Shown one piece after another: positions 39,380 through 48,683 of a stretch of DNA of 64,000 nucleotides. The position numbers and the translations under genes are program-made. The notes beneath the pieces were generated by a model. It made no database searches. It saw only the letters and a program-made list of their open reading frames with translations, and was not told where the DNA came from. Numbering within the stretch: position 1 is the first letter of the stretch; the number at the start of each line of letters is the position of its first letter. Source of the DNA: Hahella sp. KA22 (GTDB lineage Bacteria; Pseudomonadota; Gammaproteobacteria; Pseudomonadales; Oleiphilaceae); contig NZ_CP035490.1 of NCBI RefSeq assembly GCF_004135205.1, positions 4,259,644 to 4,323,643 on the forward strand. The letters run 5' to 3'.

Positions 39380-39875
39380 TGAGTTTCTCTTATTAATCTC
39401 TTTGTTAAACTCTTATCTTGATTTATTACATTAATCATTTGGCATAACCCACCAAAATATCACATATGCTTTTTAACTTTATAAAAAGCAAACACTTTTA
39501 TAATACAAGCGCCATTAGTTAAAAACTAAAACAGGATAAATCAATATATAACAATGGCCTGACGACCCGATATAACCGGCCGCGATCAGCCCATAAAAAG
39601 TAAGACAAAACTGTTTTAGTTTTTTCTCCATGGCCGCCTTGCTTAAACCGGAAATCCTGACTAAACAGTTATGACGCATCGGGGGAGTCGTTCCTCTGAC
39701 TAACCGCCGAAAAGTATGGCGCGTTCCCGCGCGCGCTTCTCAGGGACCTGCGAGACAAGCCGAGTTACCTCTGTTCTCGCGCCGTGAGTAAGGAAGCGCA
39801 CGCACTGCCGCAAGGCGAAGTTTGTAGTACGAAGGACGCTTTCATTCACTACAACGATTAACAAGGACCAGTACC
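39380..39875. promoter_or_regulatory. Divergent AT-rich promoter region of the borosin-like operon
   Basis: About 500 bp with no gene. The left 250 bp are strongly AT-rich with several possible -10/-35 elements; the right part is normal GC. AAGGACC precedes the 39876 ATG. I see no palindrome strong enough to call an operator. Confidence 0.5.
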
Positions 39876-41666
39876 ATGTCAACAGCCGCTTCCACCACTA
39901 AACCAGACCAAAGCAAAGAGTGTGTGATCAGCAATAGCTGCACCTCTGATATCGTTATTCTGTCTCCCACAACCTCCCAGGCTCCTGGCGATACACAGAA
40001 CGCCAGCGTTTACGATCAGGATCTGGAAATTCTATCTCTGCTCGAAGGCGGAACTGTGATCAGTCAGAACGGTTCCGGAACGGTTTATCTGGACCAGTAC
40101 TACACTGATCCGAATACCAAACAGCAGCAGTATTCGCTGGTTTATAACCTGCTGGCCAGCACCTCCAGCTGGTATTTCCCGGTAGACAATATCGGCGTCA
40201 TGCAAAATATCTTCAGCTCGCCAGTCACCTTTCCGGCGCAAACAGTGACTGCGGACGAACAGCAGTCCATAGCCAATGCAGCCACGTTCTATCAGACCAT
40301 CGCCGCCTACCCTACCTCCCAGTTAACCAAAGACTATGAAGCCGCCATGAACGGCGCGCAAACCACTGCGCAGGGTCAGGCGGACGGCAGCGCGAATTCT
40401 TCCGACAATGTGGCTAATTCCATCACCAATAGCGTCAATGCTTTCTTTGCGTCCACCAAGGGTTTCCAGAACGTCACCCTGGCGGGCCTGGTTGCGGTGG
40501 AGTCCTACTACAGCAAGTTCCCGTTCGTGTGGGCGCAATATGACAGCACGACCTATTACCTGTACAGCAGCGACAGTAAAACCACGTCCTTTGTGGGCAC
40601 ACTCTCTCTGACCAAACCATCGGCGCTGGATCTCAGCAAACCCAACGCCGGCTATACCTGTACCTTTACACCAGCCAAAAACCCTTCCGACACCACTACT
40701 GTCGATGTGGACTCTTCGCAAGCCAAAACGCTGACTTACACCAACGCCTTATTTGTGGACAACGTAAACGCGGATATCCCGGACGTAGCGGTGAAAGGCA
40801 CATTTCAATTGAAACGCGTCTTCACCCAAAACCCGTCCGACACCCAAATCATTCCGGTTATAACCGGCAGCATCGCCGGGGAAACCTGTATTGGGTTCGA
40901 CTCTCCGCAACTGAGCACTGACCAGAGTTCGGAATTCTGGAATACCCTCTTCCACCCGAAAAACTCCGCGCAAGTATTCAATTCCATCATGACCATTGGC
41001 GGCGCGGTGATGATGTTGCATTTCGTGGGATCGACTCTGTACGGCATCTTCAAGTGGGTCAAGAACCGCGGCAAAGCCAAGGAGCCCACCACTGAGGATT
41101 TGTTCAAGCAACAGCAGGAAGCGTTTGAGAAGGCTCTGAACGAGAAGATCGACACTGCCGTGCAGAAGCTCACCAATGGCCAGCAGAACGCGCCGGAGGA
41201 TACCGAAAGCGCACTGGATGAAATCAATTCGGAACGGGGCTCCATTGATGACAATCTGAACGCCATTAATCTGGAAGAAGGTCTGAAAGCCGAAGCCAGC
41301 ACATTGGAAATTCAGGCGCAATATGAAAGCGAAATGAACGGCCAACAGCTGGAGCAACTGGAATCCAGCGCCACCAGCATCAAGAACTCCAATGACGCGC
41401 TGAACAGCGCCACAGAAGAGAATCTCCATGATGTCGTCACCGAGCAGACCAGCGCATTCAAAGACATTCAGGCCAATACCTCCGCACTGACGGAGTCCCT
41501 CGATCAGACCATTTCCAGCGAGCAGAAGGCGCAGATCGAAAGCAATCAGGCCGCCAGCGAAAAAGTCAGCGAAGATATCGAGAATTCCGAGAAAAATGCG
41601 GAAGAGGACGCCGCCAACGACGATCCCAAAGCGGAAGACGAAATCAAGCCATTCGAAGATTTCTAA
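39876..41666 (+). CDS. Large protein with hydrophobic segment and coiled coil; operon gene 1
   Basis: A 596-residue protein with no signal peptide. Residues about 1-365 are Ser/Thr/Asp-rich and probably beta-rich. Residues about 370-395 are hydrophobic (IMTIGGAVMMLHFVGSTLYGIF), then basic (KWVKNRGKAKE), then a coiled coil from about 405 to 570 rich in Glu, Asn and Ser, ending in an acidic tail. Segments VTADEQQSIANAATFYQTIAAYP and VWAQYDSTTYYLYSS line up with parts of the next protein, so the two are distant paralogues. I recognise no known family. It is the first gene of the borosin-like operon. Confidence 0.75.
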   Translation: MSTAASTTKPDQSKECVISNSCTSDIVILSPTTSQAPGDTQNASVYDQDLEILSLLEGGTVISQNGSGTVYLDQYYTDPNTKQQQYSLVYNLLASTSSWYFPVDNIGVMQNIFSSPVTFPAQTVTADEQQSIANAATFYQTIAAYPTSQLTKDYEAAMNGAQTTAQGQADGSANSSDNVANSITNSVNAFFASTKGFQNVTLAGLVAVESYYSKFPFVWAQYDSTTYYLYSSDSKTTSFVGTLSLTKPSALDLSKPNAGYTCTFTPAKNPSDTTTVDVDSSQAKTLTYTNALFVDNVNADIPDVAVKGTFQLKRVFTQNPSDTQIIPVITGSIAGETCIGFDSPQLSTDQSSEFWNTLFHPKNSAQVFNSIMTIGGAVMMLHFVGSTLYGIFKWVKNRGKAKEPTTEDLFKQQQEAFEKALNEKIDTAVQKLTNGQQNAPEDTESALDEINSERGSIDDNLNAINLEEGLKAEASTLEIQAQYESEMNGQQLEQLESSATSIKNSNDALNSATEENLHDVVTEQTSAFKDIQANTSALTESLDQTISSEQKAQIESNQAASEKVSEDIENSEKNAEEDAANDDPKAEDEIKPFEDF

Positions 41667-41687
41667 ACACCCACTTCATTGACCATT

Positions 41688-41724
41688 GACGACGGGATGC
41701 GCAGCGACGCGCACTCCCGTCGTC
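41688..41724 (+). promoter_or_regulatory. Intercistronic hairpin between operon genes 1 and 2
   Basis: GACGACGGG (41688-41696) pairs with CCCGTCGTC (41716-41724), with an inner GCGC/GCGC stem. No T-run follows. It may adjust the ratio of the two proteins through processing or partial termination. Confidence 0.5.
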
Positions 41725-41763
41725 GCCTTTGTCACGCCCTACCCACGCTTGAAGGAGATCCGC

Positions 41764-43611
41764 ATGGCCGCGAATGTGGTTAACATCGACAATCAATATA
41801 GCGAAGCTCTCGATATCTATACGTTTACCGTGCCTTCCGGCGCCTCGGCGGATAATCCCAGCACGATGTACCCGGTTTACACCAAAGTGGACTCCGTCGC
41901 CGCCAATTCCAAGAAGACCTATACCCCCTCCAACCCTCTGGAAAACCTCTCTTTTGCGCGCCAGTCCGACGGCATGCCACTGCTGAATCAGGTCACCAAT
42001 ATCCTGAGCGACACCAATGTCACCATCACTGCTGATGACCTCACCAGCGCACAGAAAGCCTTTGCGTTCTACAAAGCTTACAAAGGCAGTCCGTACAGTC
42101 CCAACGCACTGGCGGTCAACGACATCATTCTGAACAACAGCGACCTGACGCAACAGAACCAGAAGTTGAACCAATGGTTCTCCGACAACAATGTCGGCTT
42201 TGACTACAACACCTTCTCCTCCGTTTCCTATTGGGCGGAAAACGACGTGCGCGCCTGGGCCGGCAGCGAAGGTCTGACCCTCTACTGCTACAACCCACAA
42301 CCGCCGCAACCCATTATTCCGCTGGTGCTGCCGAAAGACAGCAGCGGCCAGATTATTCTCGGCGCTGATGGCAGCGCTCTGTATCAACCCACCAGCGGAA
42401 GCACGGTGGAGCTGACGCTGAGCAAAGGGACGCTGACCTCCAACGGCGCCACCGACACCAGCGGCGTCAATCTCAGCGCGGTGATGCAGGACATGATCAT
42501 GCATGGCGGCGACGCCGGCGTTTACGAACTGTTCTTTACCGGCAAAGTCGATGGCGACGACGTCATTGTCCAGCCCTATCAGGTTCCGCAACTGGCCTGG
42601 TGGATGTCCGCCTATGATCTGGCGTACACCGCCTATACCGCCATTAACATCGTCATGATCAGCCAGACAGTCATTGCGCTGGCGAATAACCTGCCTACGC
42701 TGTTCAACGCATTGAAAACCGGGGGCCAGGCGGTGATCAGCGCCGTCAAATCCGACCTCAGTAACGTCGCACAATGGATATCCAGCAAGTTCACCAGCGC
42801 CGCGGCGGAGAATGGCGATCTGGTGAACGTGGACGTAGACACCGATGTGGACGTGGATGTCGACGTGGACGTAGACACCGACGTGGATACGGATGTGGAT
42901 GTAGACGTAGATATCGATGTGGACATTGACATAGATATCGACGCTCTGGTGGTGGTGGACGTAGATGTGGATATCGATGTAGACATCGATACCGATGTAG
43001 ACACTGTCGTGGACAATGTCGTCGACAACGTGACTGATATCGACACCGACATCGACACCGATATCAATGTCGACAGCTCTGCCCTGGGCTCGCTGGTGAA
43101 GAACATCGGCCAGTCTCTGTGGGCCAATAAAGGCGCTATTTTCAAGTTTGTGCTTAAAAACGCCGCGGTGATGGGTGGCATGACCGCCGCCCAGAAACTG
43201 CTGGGCATGTGGGGCAAAAAGGCCGGCGCCAGCTACGCCGACGAACAGCCTTCCGAAGCGGCCCCACTGGGCCTGCTCATGGATTATATGGAAAACCCCG
43301 CCAACACGATTCAGGAACGCTGGACCACCTTCTCCTACTACGTGGATCAAGGCGCCAGCGCTGACGAACAGAACATGGCGGTATCCGGCATCCTGTCCCT
43401 GAAAAACGACGCCGAGGATCAGGCCTTCAACGCCTGGCGCTGGAGTCAGGACGACGAGAACGCGGCGGTCAACGCCATGGCGCAGTATTCCGCGCAAAGC
43501 GACTGGCCGAAGGCGTACACCACACTCGCCAGCTACACCTATCAGGGAAAAACACTGCCGTTAAAAGTCGGCGCCAGCGTCGCCCTGAAATTCGTCGCCA
43601 AAATTCTTTAA
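41764..43611 (+). CDS. Large protein with Asp-Val/Ile/Thr repeat; operon gene 2
   Basis: A 615-residue protein starting MAANVVNIDNQYSEALDIY with AAGGAGATCC upstream; the in-frame codons before 41764 lack support. The N-terminal part (ITADDLTSAQKAFAFYKAYKGSPYSP, VRAWAGSEGLTLYCYNP) is distantly related to gene 1. Residues about 280-340 include hydrophobic stretches (YTAINIVMISQTVIALANN). Residues about 355-437 alternate Asp with Val, Ile or Thr. The end (FKFVLKNAAVMGGMTAAQKLLGMWG...) is Ala/Gly-rich. No family is recognised. Position directly before the methyltransferase makes it a candidate substrate or partner. Confidence 0.75.
   Translation: MAANVVNIDNQYSEALDIYTFTVPSGASADNPSTMYPVYTKVDSVAANSKKTYTPSNPLENLSFARQSDGMPLLNQVTNILSDTNVTITADDLTSAQKAFAFYKAYKGSPYSPNALAVNDIILNNSDLTQQNQKLNQWFSDNNVGFDYNTFSSVSYWAENDVRAWAGSEGLTLYCYNPQPPQPIIPLVLPKDSSGQIILGADGSALYQPTSGSTVELTLSKGTLTSNGATDTSGVNLSAVMQDMIMHGGDAGVYELFFTGKVDGDDVIVQPYQVPQLAWWMSAYDLAYTAYTAINIVMISQTVIALANNLPTLFNALKTGGQAVISAVKSDLSNVAQWISSKFTSAAAENGDLVNVDVDTDVDVDVDVDVDTDVDTDVDVDVDIDVDIDIDIDALVVVDVDVDIDVDIDTDVDTVVDNVVDNVTDIDTDIDTDINVDSSALGSLVKNIGQSLWANKGAIFKFVLKNAAVMGGMTAAQKLLGMWGKKAGASYADEQPSEAAPLGLLMDYMENPANTIQERWTTFSYYVDQGASADEQNMAVSGILSLKNDAEDQAFNAWRWSQDDENAAVNAMAQYSAQSDWPKAYTTLASYTYQGKTLPLKVGASVALKFVAKIL
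42829..43074 (+). repeat. Codon repeat encoding alternating Asp-Val/Ile/Thr
   Basis: About 82 codons of GAY alternating with GTN, ATY or ACC. It encodes a strictly alternating acidic/branched residue strand, with one Ala-Leu-Val-Val-Val break. Because GAY/GTN pairs read open on both strands, the antisense frame is also long and open. Confidence 0.9.
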
Positions 43612-43624
43612 GGGAGAACAATAC

Positions 43625-45835
43625 ATGGCGAGCGCTTACCCTAAATATGAAGACCATCAGAAGCACTGGGAAGAACTGGCGCAAGGCATCGCTGCGCTGA
43701 GAGACAAAGTCAGGGAGGTGGAAGAAGGCGAAATTCCCGCCGGCTCAAAACAAGGCGAGCTGATCATTCTGGGAACCGGCATCGAGACCATTGGCGTTTC
43801 CGTCGGCGACATCCGCCTCATCGAGGAAGCGGACAAGGTGCTGTACTGTGTGGCCGACCCCGCCACCGTGGTCTGGCTCAAGCAGTTGCGACCGGACTCG
43901 CTGGATCTGTACGTGCTGTACGGAGAAGACAAAGTCCGCTACACCACTTACATGCAGATGACGGAAGCCCAGCTCTACTGGGTGCGGCAGGGACTCAAGG
44001 TCGTAGTGGTGTTCTACGGCCACCCGGGCATATTCGTGTTATCCACTCATCGGGCCATCAAACTGGCGCGGCGGGAGGGCTATAAAGCCACCATGAAGGC
44101 GGGTGTCTGCGCGCTGGACACACTGTGCTCCGACCTGGGCATCGACCCTTGCTACCCTGGCCTGCAGACTCACGAAGCCACCGACTGCCTGATCCGACGC
44201 CGTCAATTGGACGCCAGCCTTCATGTGGTGTTATGGCAGGTCGGCCTGATTGGAGAAATGGGTTATCGCCGGCAAGGATACCTGAATAATAAGTTTTCTT
44301 ATTTCATCCACTGGCTGCAGTCTATTTACGGAGTGGATTATGAAGTCACTCACTACATTGGCTCCCGCTATCCCACCATTGACCCGCTAATCGAAACCTA
44401 TCGCCTCAGCGCGCTGCATGATCCTGAAAATCAGATCAAAATAACAGGCCTGTCCACGTTCTATATTCCGCCCATGCAGGCGGTCCCGACGGACTACCAA
44501 ACCGCCGTCGATCTGGGCGTCATCGAACCCGGGCAAAAATTGCTGACGCCCCGCTCGCCCCTGCGTGAAATCGACCGTTATGGCCCACGGGAAATGAAAG
44601 CCTTCGACGCATTTAAGCGCTTTCGCATCCCCGCTTCCTACAAATGGCAGGATGAAACCGCCGCCAGCCGCTTCCTGATTGAGCTGCGTTTCGATACGCG
44701 CTTGCAGGATCTTTATCGTCGCGATCCCGGCGCCGCGCTGCAGGACCCTCGTTTCAGCTCGTTATCAGATCGTGAGCGGGCGATGCTGGCGTCGCGGGAT
44801 TCCGGCGCCATTCAAATCGCCGCCAAAGGCGCCTATATCCGCTCCCCCGCCACAGAAGCGACGGTGACCGCCTGTCTGACGCAAAAGTCCGTCGCGATGG
44901 AGCTGCTGAAAACACTGGGGGGACAGCCCAAAGCGGAAGCCAGAGCCGCCTTCGAGACCTGGCTAAAATCAAGGAACTATCAGGTTGAGTGGGCGCATTT
45001 GGGCGGGGCCATTGATTTTATCTTCCGCAATAATCTGTTCCCCTGGACCGGGGTTTATATCGAGCCAGAGCAGCAGTTTGCGATAACGATTATCGGCGCC
45101 CGCAAACAGCGTCATAAGAGCGTTATCTACATCAACGATGTCCGTATCCGATCCTTTACTTTTGACTCCGGCGCCATTCGCTGGAAGGCGGGCGGTCAGG
45201 TTCCCCATCACGGCTTTCTGCGCCTGGACGTGGACGCCAGCGGCGCACGCCGGCTGATCGGCAAGATCTGGAGCGACGCCGCCAGCGACGGAGCCCAGTC
45301 CGCTTTTGTCGCCCTGGAAGCCAACCCGGAACGTAAAGCGCTTAGCGCCCAAGCCTGCAGTTTCAGCGGGTGTGACGACATTAGCGCCATCTATGGAGAA
45401 TACGCCGTTCGCACCGACGGACGCTTTTACCGGGACATCAACGAGTTCAATGTGTCGGAGACTGGCTTGACGATCAACCAGCGCATTGTTTCAGAGTTCT
45501 CTTTTAACAGGGGGACGCTGCGCTGGCGCGGCGGCGACAAAGCCTGCTACGAAGGGGAAGCGACCTTTTTGCGTGATCCCATCATCAACTCCATTGAGCT
45601 GTACGGCGCCACCCGCTCTAACGAAGAGGACGGCGTTTTCACCTGCTACGGCTCCTCCATCTCTCCAACGACGCCCGATTATTGCGGACCGACTCTGCCT
45701 GACTGGGCCGCGCGCCACTTGGCGGATATCGCGCGCCATAACAGCCATAAGGGAGGATTGCTGTTATGGCATAAGTGGGAAAAGTTCAATCTCACGACTT
45801 TCATCGTCAATCGCTATTTAACCCATCTTCTTTAA
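43625..45835 (+). CDS. Borosin-type alpha-N-methyltransferase fused to precursor-binding domain and duplicated C-terminal domain
   Basis: A 736-residue protein. Residues about 43-285 closely follow the fungal OphMA methyltransferase: ELIILGTGIETIG, VLYCVADPAT, LYVLYGEDKVRYTTYMQMTE, FYGHPGIFV, STFYIPP. The catalytic Tyr99, Arg105 and Tyr109 (OphMA Tyr66, Arg72, Tyr76) are present. Residues about 345-405 resemble the borosin precursor-like domain (RFLIELRFDTRLQDLYRRDPG, SDRERAMLASRDSGAIQIA). After it, instead of a short hydrophobic core, two related beta-rich blocks follow (FTFDSGAIRWKAGG..., SFNRGTLRWRGGD...). OphMA N-methylates backbone amides of its own C-terminus, using SAM. The substrate here is not evident. 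AAGGGAG is the ribosome binding site. Confidence 0.88.
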   Translation: MASAYPKYEDHQKHWEELAQGIAALRDKVREVEEGEIPAGSKQGELIILGTGIETIGVSVGDIRLIEEADKVLYCVADPATVVWLKQLRPDSLDLYVLYGEDKVRYTTYMQMTEAQLYWVRQGLKVVVVFYGHPGIFVLSTHRAIKLARREGYKATMKAGVCALDTLCSDLGIDPCYPGLQTHEATDCLIRRRQLDASLHVVLWQVGLIGEMGYRRQGYLNNKFSYFIHWLQSIYGVDYEVTHYIGSRYPTIDPLIETYRLSALHDPENQIKITGLSTFYIPPMQAVPTDYQTAVDLGVIEPGQKLLTPRSPLREIDRYGPREMKAFDAFKRFRIPASYKWQDETAASRFLIELRFDTRLQDLYRRDPGAALQDPRFSSLSDRERAMLASRDSGAIQIAAKGAYIRSPATEATVTACLTQKSVAMELLKTLGGQPKAEARAAFETWLKSRNYQVEWAHLGGAIDFIFRNNLFPWTGVYIEPEQQFAITIIGARKQRHKSVIYINDVRIRSFTFDSGAIRWKAGGQVPHHGFLRLDVDASGARRLIGKIWSDAASDGAQSAFVALEANPERKALSAQACSFSGCDDISAIYGEYAVRTDGRFYRDINEFNVSETGLTINQRIVSEFSFNRGTLRWRGGDKACYEGEATFLRDPIINSIELYGATRSNEEDGVFTCYGSSISPTTPDYCGPTLPDWAARHLADIARHNSHKGGLLLWHKWEKFNLTTFIVNRYLTHLL

Positions 45836-45855
45836 TCCTTGAGGAGGAATGCGCC

Positions 45856-47463
45856 TTGAACGCCACACACGAACTCAGCGATCACCTCGAAGCGTCGGAA
45901 AATATCGCCAACGTCAGCCAGTTGGCGGGCGTCGTCGCCAGCCTGCCGCAGAACGCCAGCACCACTCATTACGGGGCGGACGGCAAGCAAATCGCGTCCT
46001 ATTCCAAAACCAGTTACGCCAACCTAAAACTGTCCCCGCAGGGCGACATTCAGGGTGGAACCCTGAGTCATACCGCAACGGACGCCAATGGCAATACGCT
46101 TAACAGCTCCACCCTCGCCTTCGCCAACGGTAATGTCGCCTCGGCCAAAACGCAGATCAACAATCGCTTCGCCAGTGGCGTCGCCAAGCAGGTGGAAGCG
46201 GATTTCGGTAATGTGAAATGGACGCCGGCCACCACCATTCACAGCGGCCAGGTCAAATTCACATCCCGGTGCGGAGATTCTCAAACCCTGCGTAGCGACG
46301 GCTTCGTCACTTACGCCAATGAGCTGATAACGAGCGGATCGTTTCGCCATTACTCGCCGGAGGGACAAGGCGGCGTGGAAGGCTATACGGACATCGACTA
46401 CAGCAACACCAAATTCGTCGGCGACCGCATTATCGGCGGTTACTTCTCCGTCTCCTCCAAGAACGCCGCGCGCGCAGAGAACTCACAATCCAATGTATTC
46501 ATGAACGCCAGCGGCCGCATAGACCAGATTCACACTAAAAATTTCGACCCTGTCTCCGCCGCAATGAAGTCACAGGTTTTGACGGAGTTCCAAAACACCC
46601 AGTTCAACGCCCGTAACGAAATCGACGGCGGTGAAGCCCACTACAGCGTCAGCGATCCCAGCGGAGCCTTGCAGAACAAAACAGTGGTGACCTATCAAAA
46701 CGGCGTCCCGTCAAATACCGTCACGCAAAACTACGCCAACAACCAGGTCCTCAGTAAAGTGGTTTCATCGTACGAAGGCGCGACATTCGACAATGAACTG
46801 CGAGCCATCAACAGCACGGTTCATACCCGGGAATACAACGCAGCGGAAAAGCTGATGTCCATGACGGACGCCAGTTACAACGCCAGCGGAGCGCCCGCCA
46901 AAATTCAAAGCCGCACGCTGGACCCGGACACACAAACGCCGCTGTTTCTGATCGAAACGGACTACGCCAACACACAGTTTAACTACCGCCGCAAACCCAT
47001 TGGCGGTCACGCCAAAATCACCACGACCAACCTGAAGGACGCCAGCTCCATCGAGACCATAAAAACCTTCACCTCGCCCACGGCGGCCACCACAACCAGC
47101 ACAACCAATACAACGGCTCAAGCAGAAGAACTGATGGCCACGCCGACGCAGCCTTCAGCGCCACAGTACCTGACCCACACCAGCACGATGAAAAACGCGG
47201 AGGGCCAAACCACCGCCTATAAGAAAACCATCACGCGCAGCGATGGCTCACTACTTAAAACCGTGATCACCAATGTCACTGACGATAAGCCAACCTCCGT
47301 CGCGGTGACGCTCTACGCCGAGGACGGCAAAACCGTCGCCAAGACTTACGCCATGGACGTCAGCGGAGTGGCCGTCAACGCAGGAAAAGTCAGCGGCGCG
47401 ATGAAAATAACCGCCAAATTTCGCGGCCAGACCCTCAGCAGCGAAAGCACTGTGGAGTTTTGA
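45856..47463 (+). CDS. Repetitive beta-rich protein, operon gene 4
   Basis: A 535-residue protein beginning at TTG (45856) with GAGGAGG eight bases before; the ATG at 45775 would overlap the methyltransferase end. Repeats of about 60-70 residues share a [Y/F]xNxxF...I.GG pattern (YSNTKFVGDRIIGGYFSV, FQNTQFNARNEIDGGEAHYS, YANTQFNYRRKPIGGHAKIT). It is rich in Thr, Ser, Asn and Gly, with almost no Cys. No signal peptide is seen. No family is recognised. It might be a structural or surface partner, or a substrate of the modifying enzymes. The gene lies 20 bp after the methyltransferase. Confidence 0.75.
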   Translation: MNATHELSDHLEASENIANVSQLAGVVASLPQNASTTHYGADGKQIASYSKTSYANLKLSPQGDIQGGTLSHTATDANGNTLNSSTLAFANGNVASAKTQINNRFASGVAKQVEADFGNVKWTPATTIHSGQVKFTSRCGDSQTLRSDGFVTYANELITSGSFRHYSPEGQGGVEGYTDIDYSNTKFVGDRIIGGYFSVSSKNAARAENSQSNVFMNASGRIDQIHTKNFDPVSAAMKSQVLTEFQNTQFNARNEIDGGEAHYSVSDPSGALQNKTVVTYQNGVPSNTVTQNYANNQVLSKVVSSYEGATFDNELRAINSTVHTREYNAAEKLMSMTDASYNASGAPAKIQSRTLDPDTQTPLFLIETDYANTQFNYRRKPIGGHAKITTTNLKDASSIETIKTFTSPTAATTTSTTNTTAQAEELMATPTQPSAPQYLTHTSTMKNAEGQTTAYKKTITRSDGSLLKTVITNVTDDKPTSVAVTLYAEDGKTVAKTYAMDVSGVAVNAGKVSGAMKITAKFRGQTLSSESTVEF

Positions 47464-47467
47464 TCCG

Positions 47468-48109
47468 ATGCTCAGCCGCGCCCTGACACTGACGTACGAT
47501 ACGGAGCAGTATCCGTTCCAGAGAGTATTGTCGCACTATGTCTTTAAAGTGCGGCGACTGGACCAGTTGCATGTGGTGTGGCGGCGACAGAATAACCGGG
47601 ACAAACTGCATTATCAGGACAACATGGCGCTGCGCAGTCTGATGCAGCGCCTGCCTGACGACTCCCCGTTTTATAAGGTGTATCACGCCTGGATCGCCCA
47701 TGTGCTGGCCCCGCTCTACGGCGGCAAGATCAGTTATTCCGCGCATCCGAAAATGCGCGTGCATCTGGCTGGGACCAGCTGCGTGAGCGATTTTCATCGC
47801 GACGCGGACGTGACCGGCAGACTGGATCAGATCAACTGCTACCTCCCCTTCACCGACGTCTTCGAAACCTGCACGGTATGGTGTGAAGAGCGTTACGACA
47901 GCAATATCTACCAGCCACTCACGCTGAAGTATGGAGAGGCCCTGTTATGGGACGGCGGCTTGCTAAAACACGGCACATTCGCCAATCAAACCGATCAGAC
48001 ACGCGTCAGTTGCGATTTCAGGTTCAAAGCGAAGGCGCCTGACAGGGTCCGCCCGCCTTGGAGCGATGTTCTGGCTGATCGCCAGCCATTGACTCAATCT
48101 GAGTTATGA
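47468..48109 (+). CDS. 2OG-Fe(II) oxygenase-like (StrG-like) enzyme, operon gene 5
   Basis: A 213-residue protein that starts four bases after the previous stop, so it is translationally coupled. FHRDADV (His110, Asp112) and LLKHGTFANQTDQTRVSCDF (His168, Arg179) give the HxD...H iron site and a 2-oxoglutarate-binding Arg of the cupin-fold dioxygenases. YSAHPKMRVHLAGT and QINCYLPFTDVFETCTVWCE resemble StrG-type enzymes of antibiotic clusters (from memory). Probably hydroxylates or oxidises the product of the operon. This gene closes the operon and its end overlaps that of the next, convergent gene. Confidence 0.75.
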   Translation: MLSRALTLTYDTEQYPFQRVLSHYVFKVRRLDQLHVVWRRQNNRDKLHYQDNMALRSLMQRLPDDSPFYKVYHAWIAHVLAPLYGGKISYSAHPKMRVHLAGTSCVSDFHRDADVTGRLDQINCYLPFTDVFETCTVWCEERYDSNIYQPLTLKYGEALLWDGGLLKHGTFANQTDQTRVSCDFRFKAKAPDRVRPPWSDVLADRQPLTQSEL

Positions 48110-48394
48110 GCCGTCTTGATTCAGTGTCCTGACCATCTTTTCCAGCAAGACAAGCTCATCGGTGGTCAGGCAATGGTGAGTGATATGATCGTCGCCGCCC
48201 AAATGGCGTTTGAGATTGTCCATCCAGTTTTTGCAGATTCTGATTTGCCGCAGGATATCTTCCGTGAGGGCCTTATCGCTTTCCAAAGCGGAAAGCTGCT
48301 GCATTTTCCCATTTATGCAATTTAACGCTTCATGTTTCTGGCAAGTGACGCCAATTTTGCTCCACGTCTCGTCTATCAATGGGGCGTTGATCAT
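48104..48394 (-). CDS. Small hypothetical protein
   Basis: A 96-residue helical protein starting MINAPLIDETWSKIGVTCQK, with TGAGG upstream. It overlaps the convergent StrG-like gene by 6 bp. No family is recognised. It contains HLGGDDHITHHCLTTDELVLL. It could be a regulator, but this is not supported. Confidence 0.5.
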   Translation of the reverse strand: MINAPLIDETWSKIGVTCQKHEALNCINGKMQQLSALESDKALTEDILRQIRICKNWMDNLKRHLGGDDHITHHCLTTDELVLLEKMVRTLNQDGS

Positions 48395-48473
48395 AAAGGA
48401 CCTCAGCGCATAACGACTACTGGCTCTTTTGGAGCCGCCATTATTGAGTTTTTCGGATAGTGAAAGAAAAAAG

Positions 48474-48511
48474 AGTCTGGCGCAAAACGGATGACGCTGG
48501 CGCGCCAGACT
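48474..48511 (-). terminator. Rho-independent terminator (minus strand)
   Basis: AGTCTGGCGC pairs with GCGCCAGACT; on the minus strand the stem is followed by a T-run (CTTTTTTC). It may end minus-strand transcripts coming from the kinase side. Confidence 0.6.
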
Positions 48512-48683
48512 TGTCCAGGGTTGCGTATCTTCGAGACCTTACTTTAGGGAATTATCAGCGAGGGAGTAATACGGGAGGCTACGGAACTTTTTCGGGAATA
48601 TCTCAGTAGTATTACTGAACGCCTGTGGCGTTTTCCCTCCCAGTACATCTACTGCCTGTCCACCAGGCCCGCCAGCTTACTAC

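Follow-up and report, generated by a model that had tools for sequence, protein, structure and literature searches.

Among the borosin-type alpha-N-methyltransferases described to date, the bacterial type III enzyme KchMA is reported to carry up to 11 modified sites within residues 742-796 and to favour Ala, Val and Leu, with some Asp, and type III cores in general are described as alternating acidic residues with others (PMC11395268). The type IV enzyme SonM methylates the alternate residues L63 and I65 (i and i+2) of its partner SonA (PMC8429565). Type III, VII and VIII enzymes are reported as neighbours in a tree, and type VIII precursors are described as extending some 160 residues beyond the core (PMC11395268). 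Here we describe a five-gene operon at positions 39876-48109 of a 64,000-nucleotide stretch of Hahella sp. KA22 DNA (contig NZ_CP035490.1, positions 4,259,644 to 4,323,643; hereafter the window), from a host genome of 6.96 Mb. Its sequence indicates that the operon is probably a split borosin cassette, in which the methyltransferase encoded by gene 3 would N-methylate, in trans, an alternating Asp-(Val/Ile/Thr) tract in the protein encoded by gene 2. All five genes and the features described below lie on the + strand.

Gene 3 Encodes an OphMA-Type Methyltransferase

Gene 3 (736 amino acids (aa); 43625..45835) is assigned by sequence, fold, active-site residues and tree placement to the borosin (OphMA-type) alpha-N-methyltransferase family. 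The predicted methyltransferase domain (residues 40-302; 43742..44530; TP_methylase E 1.9e-9) contains Y96, Y99, R105, Y109, Y131 and Q205, and is followed by a clasp, or borosin-binding-domain (BBD)-like, region (residues 346-401; 44660..44827) that forms five short helices in the AlphaFold2 (AF2) model, and by two related beta domains in the same model (residues 476-678; 45050..45658), whose internal similarity scores 58 against a maximum of 37 in 50 shuffles. In phmmer comparisons with solved structures, gene 3 matches dbOphMA, OphMA and the Mycena rosella borosin enzymes at E 1e-63 to 1e-67, with the OphMA-type alignment spanning residues 40-402 and hence both methyltransferase and clasp; SonM matches at about E 1e-36 over the methyltransferase part alone. 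Residues Y96, Y99, R105, Y109 and Y131 are invariant in 18/18 aligned gene 3 homologues and align with OphA Y63, Y66, R72, Y76 and Y98, a mapping that takes the published numbering to be shifted by one residue relative to the chain; these OphA positions are the ones mutated in solved structures, according to the structure titles. The AlphaFold model (mean predicted local distance difference test score (pLDDT) 85.3, predicted TM-score 0.58) proceeds from a two-lobed methyltransferase through the clasp-like helices and a helical bundle (408-469) to the two beta domains and, at the C-terminus, a pair of helices. In Foldseek the model is closest to OphA structures (E 1.4e-24), with a root-mean-square deviation of about 19 A, so that only parts superpose at any one time.

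The phylogeny was built from 42 rows, comprising 18 gene 3 relatives, OphMA, dbOphMA, 16 SonM-type enzymes and six PF00590 (tetrapyrrole-methylase-family) proteins from the same Hahella genome, with no diphthine synthase row among them. The gene 3 relatives form a single clade (98/97) that joins OphMA and dbOphMA (97/100), and the SonM-type and PF00590 rows fall outside this grouping. Because the PF00590 outgroup branches are very long the root of the tree is unsure; the gene 3/OphMA grouping is independent of the root. The first-pass annotation of this DNA had proposed an OphMA-like enzyme retaining Tyr99, Arg105 and Tyr109, which the structure matches, the Foldseek result and the 18/18 conservation bear out, and it had named as the contrary case a grouping with cobalamin or diphthine methylases and not with OphMA; the clade instead joins OphMA and dbOphMA. 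A type IV, SonM-like identity was also considered and rejected, since gene 3 has 736 aa, a clasp and a separate clade, against a clasp-less enzyme of 263 aa.

Gene 2 Carries a Conserved Asp-Val/Ile/Thr Tract

Gene 2 (615 aa; 41764..43611), the proposed substrate (precursor) protein, contains at residues 355-437 (42826..43074) an alternating Asp-(Val/Ile/Thr) tract that went unmentioned in the earlier annotation and that we propose as the N-methylation core. The 83 residues of the tract form three blocks, interrupted by a conserved hydrophobic break, include 31 Asp-[VIT] steps, and are followed by a conserved helical C-terminal domain of about 155 residues (residues 460-615; 43141..43608). In total 178 residues follow residue 437, and 176-191 follow the tract in carriers that have no C-terminal extension. 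The number of Asp-[VIT] steps ranges from 29 to 46 across the 20 large carriers counted, and the non-Asp residue following Asp is V, T or I in 682/735 cases (22 carriers counted). The protein as a whole is 98-99% identical in three other Hahella genomes, and a comparison of the 83 tract codons with these orthologues reveals 21, 25 and 29 synonymous changes against 1, 0 and 0 non-synonymous changes, without insertions or deletions. This pattern indicates that selection keeps both the protein sequence and the length of the tract, and the constancy of length stands out, since drift in length is what one would otherwise expect of a repeat.

Most of the tract has AF2 confidence below 30 and is predicted to be disordered. 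Because pLDDT values below 50 extend over residues 297-492, the helices flanking the tract are not secure in the model. Both of the domains that flank it are conserved across phyla. A Foldseek search with the gene 2 model returned no match at E 0.001, and the best hits, to VHL beta domains (E 0.0066, low TM-scores) and then other beta domains, were not used. Matches of gene 2 to NCBIfam MSCRAMM adhesins, which pair the low-complexity tract with Ser-Asp repeats far below the cut-off, were likewise set aside, and short tract-only matches in 4 other genomes of the host family, together with a second, opposite-strand tract match in G006, were treated as low-complexity. The earlier annotation had left open whether the operon makes a methylated peptide or methylates a large protein; the latter half of that suggestion now has a concrete candidate in the 83-residue tract of gene 2.

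The Tract Accompanies the Enzyme Across Loci

To define the linkage between tract and enzyme, genome contigs were scanned by gene 3 peptide patterns alone, which yielded 26 loci. Adding the window, three plasmid loci and another two loci from Hahella brings the set to 32, which are not independent cases because some are close relatives (L043/L044, L062/L063, L060/L067 and the cyanobacterial set). A strict tract, defined as five or more consecutive Asp-[VIT] units, is present in 28/32 loci, with a relaxed form in a 29th (L064). As for the other loci that fail the strict test, L056 and L057 stop short of the enzyme gene, by 390 and 182 bases respectively, and the enzyme of L066 is broken and has lost part of its sequence. 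The controls were negative: no tract, strict or relaxed, occurs in any of 15 SonM-type loci (up to about 9 kb on each side, 262,565 bases), and none in four further plasmid loci of other borosin-type enzymes.

The tract persists with the enzyme while its carrier varies between a large protein, a 94-aa peptide and the tail of the enzyme. In 20 of the 26 scanned loci the tract resides in a large upstream protein homologous to gene 2, and these homologues are always immediately upstream of gene 3 or separated from it by one paralogue. Two Pseudoalteromonas loci (L062, L063) place it on a separate 94-aa open reading frame (ORF) directly downstream of the enzyme (965 aa in this short pair), and the 1174-aa enzyme of the Magnetococcales locus L064 itself carries a short, imperfect tract within its acidic tail, which follows a hydrophobic, TM-like segment. 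The fused form is the first to branch in the tree, followed by the short-peptide form and then the large-carrier forms. Beside the fused Magnetococcales enzyme (L041 / L064) is a protein with PQQ-like repeats and a PLD domain, and in Pseudoalteromonas (L062:13921-16924) the 94-aa ORF and the oxygenase gene are followed by genes for a radical SAM protein and a DUF364 (putative heavy-metal chelation) protein.

Taxonomically Scattered Carriers

Gene 3 was found in four of seven Hahella genomes, including that of the window, and in no other genus of the host family (4/163 genomes overall); a Hahella sp. HN01 record carries the same operon. Securely placed carriers belong to four phyla, namely Pseudomonadota, Bacteroidota (Aquimarina), Cyanobacteriota (Microcystis elabens, metagenome bins) and Acidobacteriota (a Bryobacterales bin). 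The cassette is also found, with adjoining insertion sequences, on megaplasmids of Mycetohabitans endofungorum, an endosymbiont of Rhizopus, as well as on a conjugative Azospirillum lipoferum plasmid. This distribution is most simply explained by transfer between distant bacteria; viral contigs contained no relative. Two complete cassettes (L045, L046) are in a single bin labelled Williamsia with a G+C content of 0.49-0.51, a label that is doubtful because this content seems too low for the genus; the two cassettes are probably misbinned.

The recurrent set consists of genes 1, 2, 3 and 5. Beyond genes 1-5, every other gene family occurs in at most 4/26 loci, peptidase and exporter families do not recur from lineage to lineage among the 26 loci compared, and an ORF with an ABC-ATPase-like signature is present in three of them, the window included. 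The statement in the first-pass annotation that it knew no family with this set is not supported, as the same genes are found together in four securely placed phyla and on plasmids, and their layout fits a published class in which methyltransferase and BBD are together and the core is elsewhere (PMC11395268). In three Methylococcaceae cassettes, GH19 (chitinase/lysozyme-like) genes follow the enzyme or oxygenase gene (L051:12519-13145, L060:8345-8971, L067:10816-11484), and a protein with phage-lysozyme and C39-like peptidase domains is encoded upstream of the cyanobacterial cassette L055; such cell-wall enzymes may hint at a role in the envelope.

Operon Organization and the Remaining Genes

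The five co-directional genes are separated by gaps of 97, 13, 20 and 4 bp, in agreement between the earlier coordinates and our ORF check, with start codons at ATG 41764 for gene 2 and TTG 45856 for gene 4 by ORF inspection; purine-rich stretches resembling ribosome-binding sites were seen by eye before genes 2, 3 and 4. Consensus scanning of 39380-48650 found no sigma-70-like promoter (mean of 6.3 in shuffles) and 13 terminator-like sites against 11.1 in shuffles, hence no excess. Since these scans gave no signal, we infer a single transcript for genes 1-5 from the spacing and from the gene order repeated elsewhere. In a comparison of the window with L038, identity to the G006 counterparts is 98-99% for genes 1 and 2 and 74-89% for genes 3-5, a contrast in sequence that suggests recombination or differing constraint inside the operon.

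Gene 1 (596 aa; 39876..41666) is a tract-less paralogue of gene 2 that has the N-terminal region in common with it, a hydrophobic segment near residues 367-385 and an acidic, coil-like C-terminus. Its paralogy with gene 2, asserted in the first-pass annotation, is not apparent by BLASTP (best E 0.32) and emerges in profile-profile comparison (306 columns, probability 99.1, E 5e-19). No Pfam family exceeded the cut-off for gene 1, and neither Pfam nor NCBIfam gave an informative family for genes 1, 2 or 4. By profile, relatives of gene 1 are located upstream in 16/26 loci, often in two copies and once in three, and a 17th locus preserves part of one where the contig breaks off. Neither of the Pseudoalteromonas loci has them, nor do L064, L060 and L066, and the sequence of several further loci stops too early for their presence to be judged. 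One gene 1-like protein of 986 aa (L058:4346-7306) terminates in 26 residues of poly(Asp-Gly).

Gene 4 (535 aa from TTG; 45856..47463) is beta-rich in appearance and internally repetitive, as annotated previously (self-alignment score 101 against a maximum of 69 in 100 shuffles), and is accessory, with homologues in 5/26 loci compared (window included). Gene 5 (213 aa; 47468..48109) encodes a 2-oxoglutarate-Fe(II)-type oxygenase with the motif H110-x-D112 ... H168 ... R179, and this H-x-D...H...R pattern is invariant in 14/14 homologues. As to its earlier description as a StrG-like oxygenase, its own family match is weak (PhyH E 0.0029, below the cut-off), but homologues in two of the three plasmid cassettes are annotated 'streptomycin biosynthesis enzyme StrG'. 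Gene 5 is present in 21/26 scanned loci. The remainder are L049, which ends right after the enzyme, L046, L051 and L052, with no gene 5 relative in the available sequence, and L064, where an unrelated Cupin_8/JmjC-type oxygenase is encoded near the enzyme.

Proposed Mechanism and Alternative Explanations

We propose that a gene 3 homodimer, with a methyltransferase and a clasp in each chain as in OphMA, would bind gene 2 and thread the disordered Asp-(Val/Ile/Thr) tract through its active site, where methyl groups from S-adenosylmethionine would be transferred to backbone amide nitrogens, most likely those of Val, Ile or Thr at every second position, with up to 31 Asp-[VIT] steps available. 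Gene 5 probably hydroxylates the product, for which the side chains of Asp or Val are obvious candidates, and gene 1 is a likely structural partner of gene 2; both roles are guesses drawn from the recurrence of these genes. The tract is taken as the substrate because of its linkage to the enzyme, its persistence through three carriers, its predicted disorder and the KchMA precedent, and the i/i+2 pattern in SonA fits methylation at the Val/Ile/Thr positions. A possible reason for the modification comes from the behaviour of a related sequence, as the soluble peptide V(DV)4 is reported to form amyloid with a cationic partner peptide (PMC5770463), and N-methylation of alternate residues would block one set of beta-sheet hydrogen bonds.

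Several observations weigh against methylation of the tract. KchMA with an inserted TEV site left acidic, basic and aromatic residues unmethylated at the position tested (PMC11395268), and Thr, which constitutes 217/735 of the post-Asp tract residues, is not named among the residues that KchMA favours. The Magnetococcales tract is short and imperfect, and conservation of the tract could have another cause, such as metal binding or assembly. Acidic repeats commonly bind metal, and gene 3 might instead methylate the C-terminal part of its own chain, the gene 1 or gene 4 protein, or a small peptide that has escaped annotation, leaving the tract as an unmodified segment for binding metal or a partner. 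About 330 gene 3 residues extend beyond the clasp, as in fused borosins, and gene 1 relatives also adjoin the enzyme; however, Hahella gene 3 contains no alternating acidic tract (self-modification through the same kind of tract was rejected for this reason), the tract is present in L064 and in the two Pseudoalteromonas loci, none of which has gene 1, gene 4 is found in only 5/26 loci, and the linkage of tract and enzyme over three architectures would go unexplained. We consider a different target unlikely. That gene 3 is a small-molecule methylase of the tetrapyrrole type (cobalamin/siroheme), with unrelated neighbours, is highly improbable: Pfam names the domain TP_methylase and the superfamily is common to both, but the clasp region, the active-site residues and the conserved linkage to precursor-like proteins argue otherwise, and the tree shows no grouping with CobA/CobI-type enzymes.

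If the tract is methylated in trans by gene 3, as we favour, the product may have either of two fates. Excision of the methylated tract to give a conventional short or medium-sized borosin peptide is a real possibility, albeit one we would not call probable. Characterized fungal borosins are, as far as is known, all released peptides (PMC11285071), the Pseudoalteromonas carrier is itself a 94-aa peptide, the C39-like peptidase protein is encoded upstream in L055, and an ABC transporter gene is located upstream of the Azospirillum cassette. Yet peptidase and exporter families are not recurrent, as set out above, and the tract-flanking domains are conserved across phyla. By contrast, a clasp-less borosin-type methyltransferase outside the clade, on a Bradyrhizobium plasmid (L097:5911-10923), does have a prolyl oligopeptidase nearby along with a TauD/TfdA dioxygenase, a neighbourhood resembling a peptide-releasing borosin cluster. 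Alternatively, and with a plausibility that also falls somewhat short of even, the mature product might be a full-length, membrane-associated gene 1/gene 2 protein pair, spread by plasmids among distant bacteria, in which about 80 gene 2 residues would be alternately backbone-N-methylated, possibly hydroxylated, and polyanionic. Were this so, the gene 2 strand would be protease-resistant and would lack the ordinary beta-sheet hydrogen bonding that makes unmodified Asp-Val repeats prone to assemble; few ribosomal products would have a longer backbone-N-methylated stretch, and this would be a first borosin working as a structural protein.

Significance and Comparison With Known Borosin Systems

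The candidate substrate is unusually easy to recognise and the cassette (genes 1, 2, 3 and 5) is compact and conserved over several phyla; what is modified, where, and whether the product is released are therefore directly testable in the laboratory. Should the product remain a protein, N-methylation of the backbone would be a means of building proteins, reaching beyond small peptides, and an enzyme tolerant of Asp-Val repeats could serve as a tool for N-methylated materials. The open-licence literature yielded no pairing of DVDVDVDV with borosins and no text linking Hahella or Aquimarina with borosins, which does not imply absence from print. Within the literature covered, we did not meet the Asp-Val tract as the mark of a clade, the four-gene cassette with paralogue and oxygenase, its occurrence on plasmids, or a protein product.

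The fungal type I enzymes OphMA and dbOphMA resemble gene 3 in combining methyltransferase and clasp in one chain, in overall similarity (E about 1e-67) and in the active-site Tyr and Arg residues. They differ in being fused to their core, whereas the C-terminus of gene 3 has beta domains and no such core peptide, and the proposed core here is on a separate 615-aa protein. The proposed gene 2 core is similar to that of type III KchMA, which alternates acidic residues and is methylated at many aliphatic sites, although the KchMA core is fused to its enzyme and the gene 2 candidate would be presented in trans. Type IV SonM/SonA offers trans action by an alpha-N-methyltransferase and methylation of alternate residues, as proposed here; SonM has no clasp, however, SonA is about 75 residues long with its own BBD, and none of the 15 SonM-type loci has an Asp tract. 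The layout of types VII and VIII (class 2 of Xu et al. 2024; PMC11395268), in which methyltransferase and BBD-like clasp are together and the core is separate, fits what is proposed for the Hahella operon; the 178 residues after the gene 2 tract compare with about 160 after the type VIII core. Type VII/VIII names such as PruM suggest an origin in Pseudoalteromonas rubra, and the cassette family probably belongs to the published type VII or VIII.

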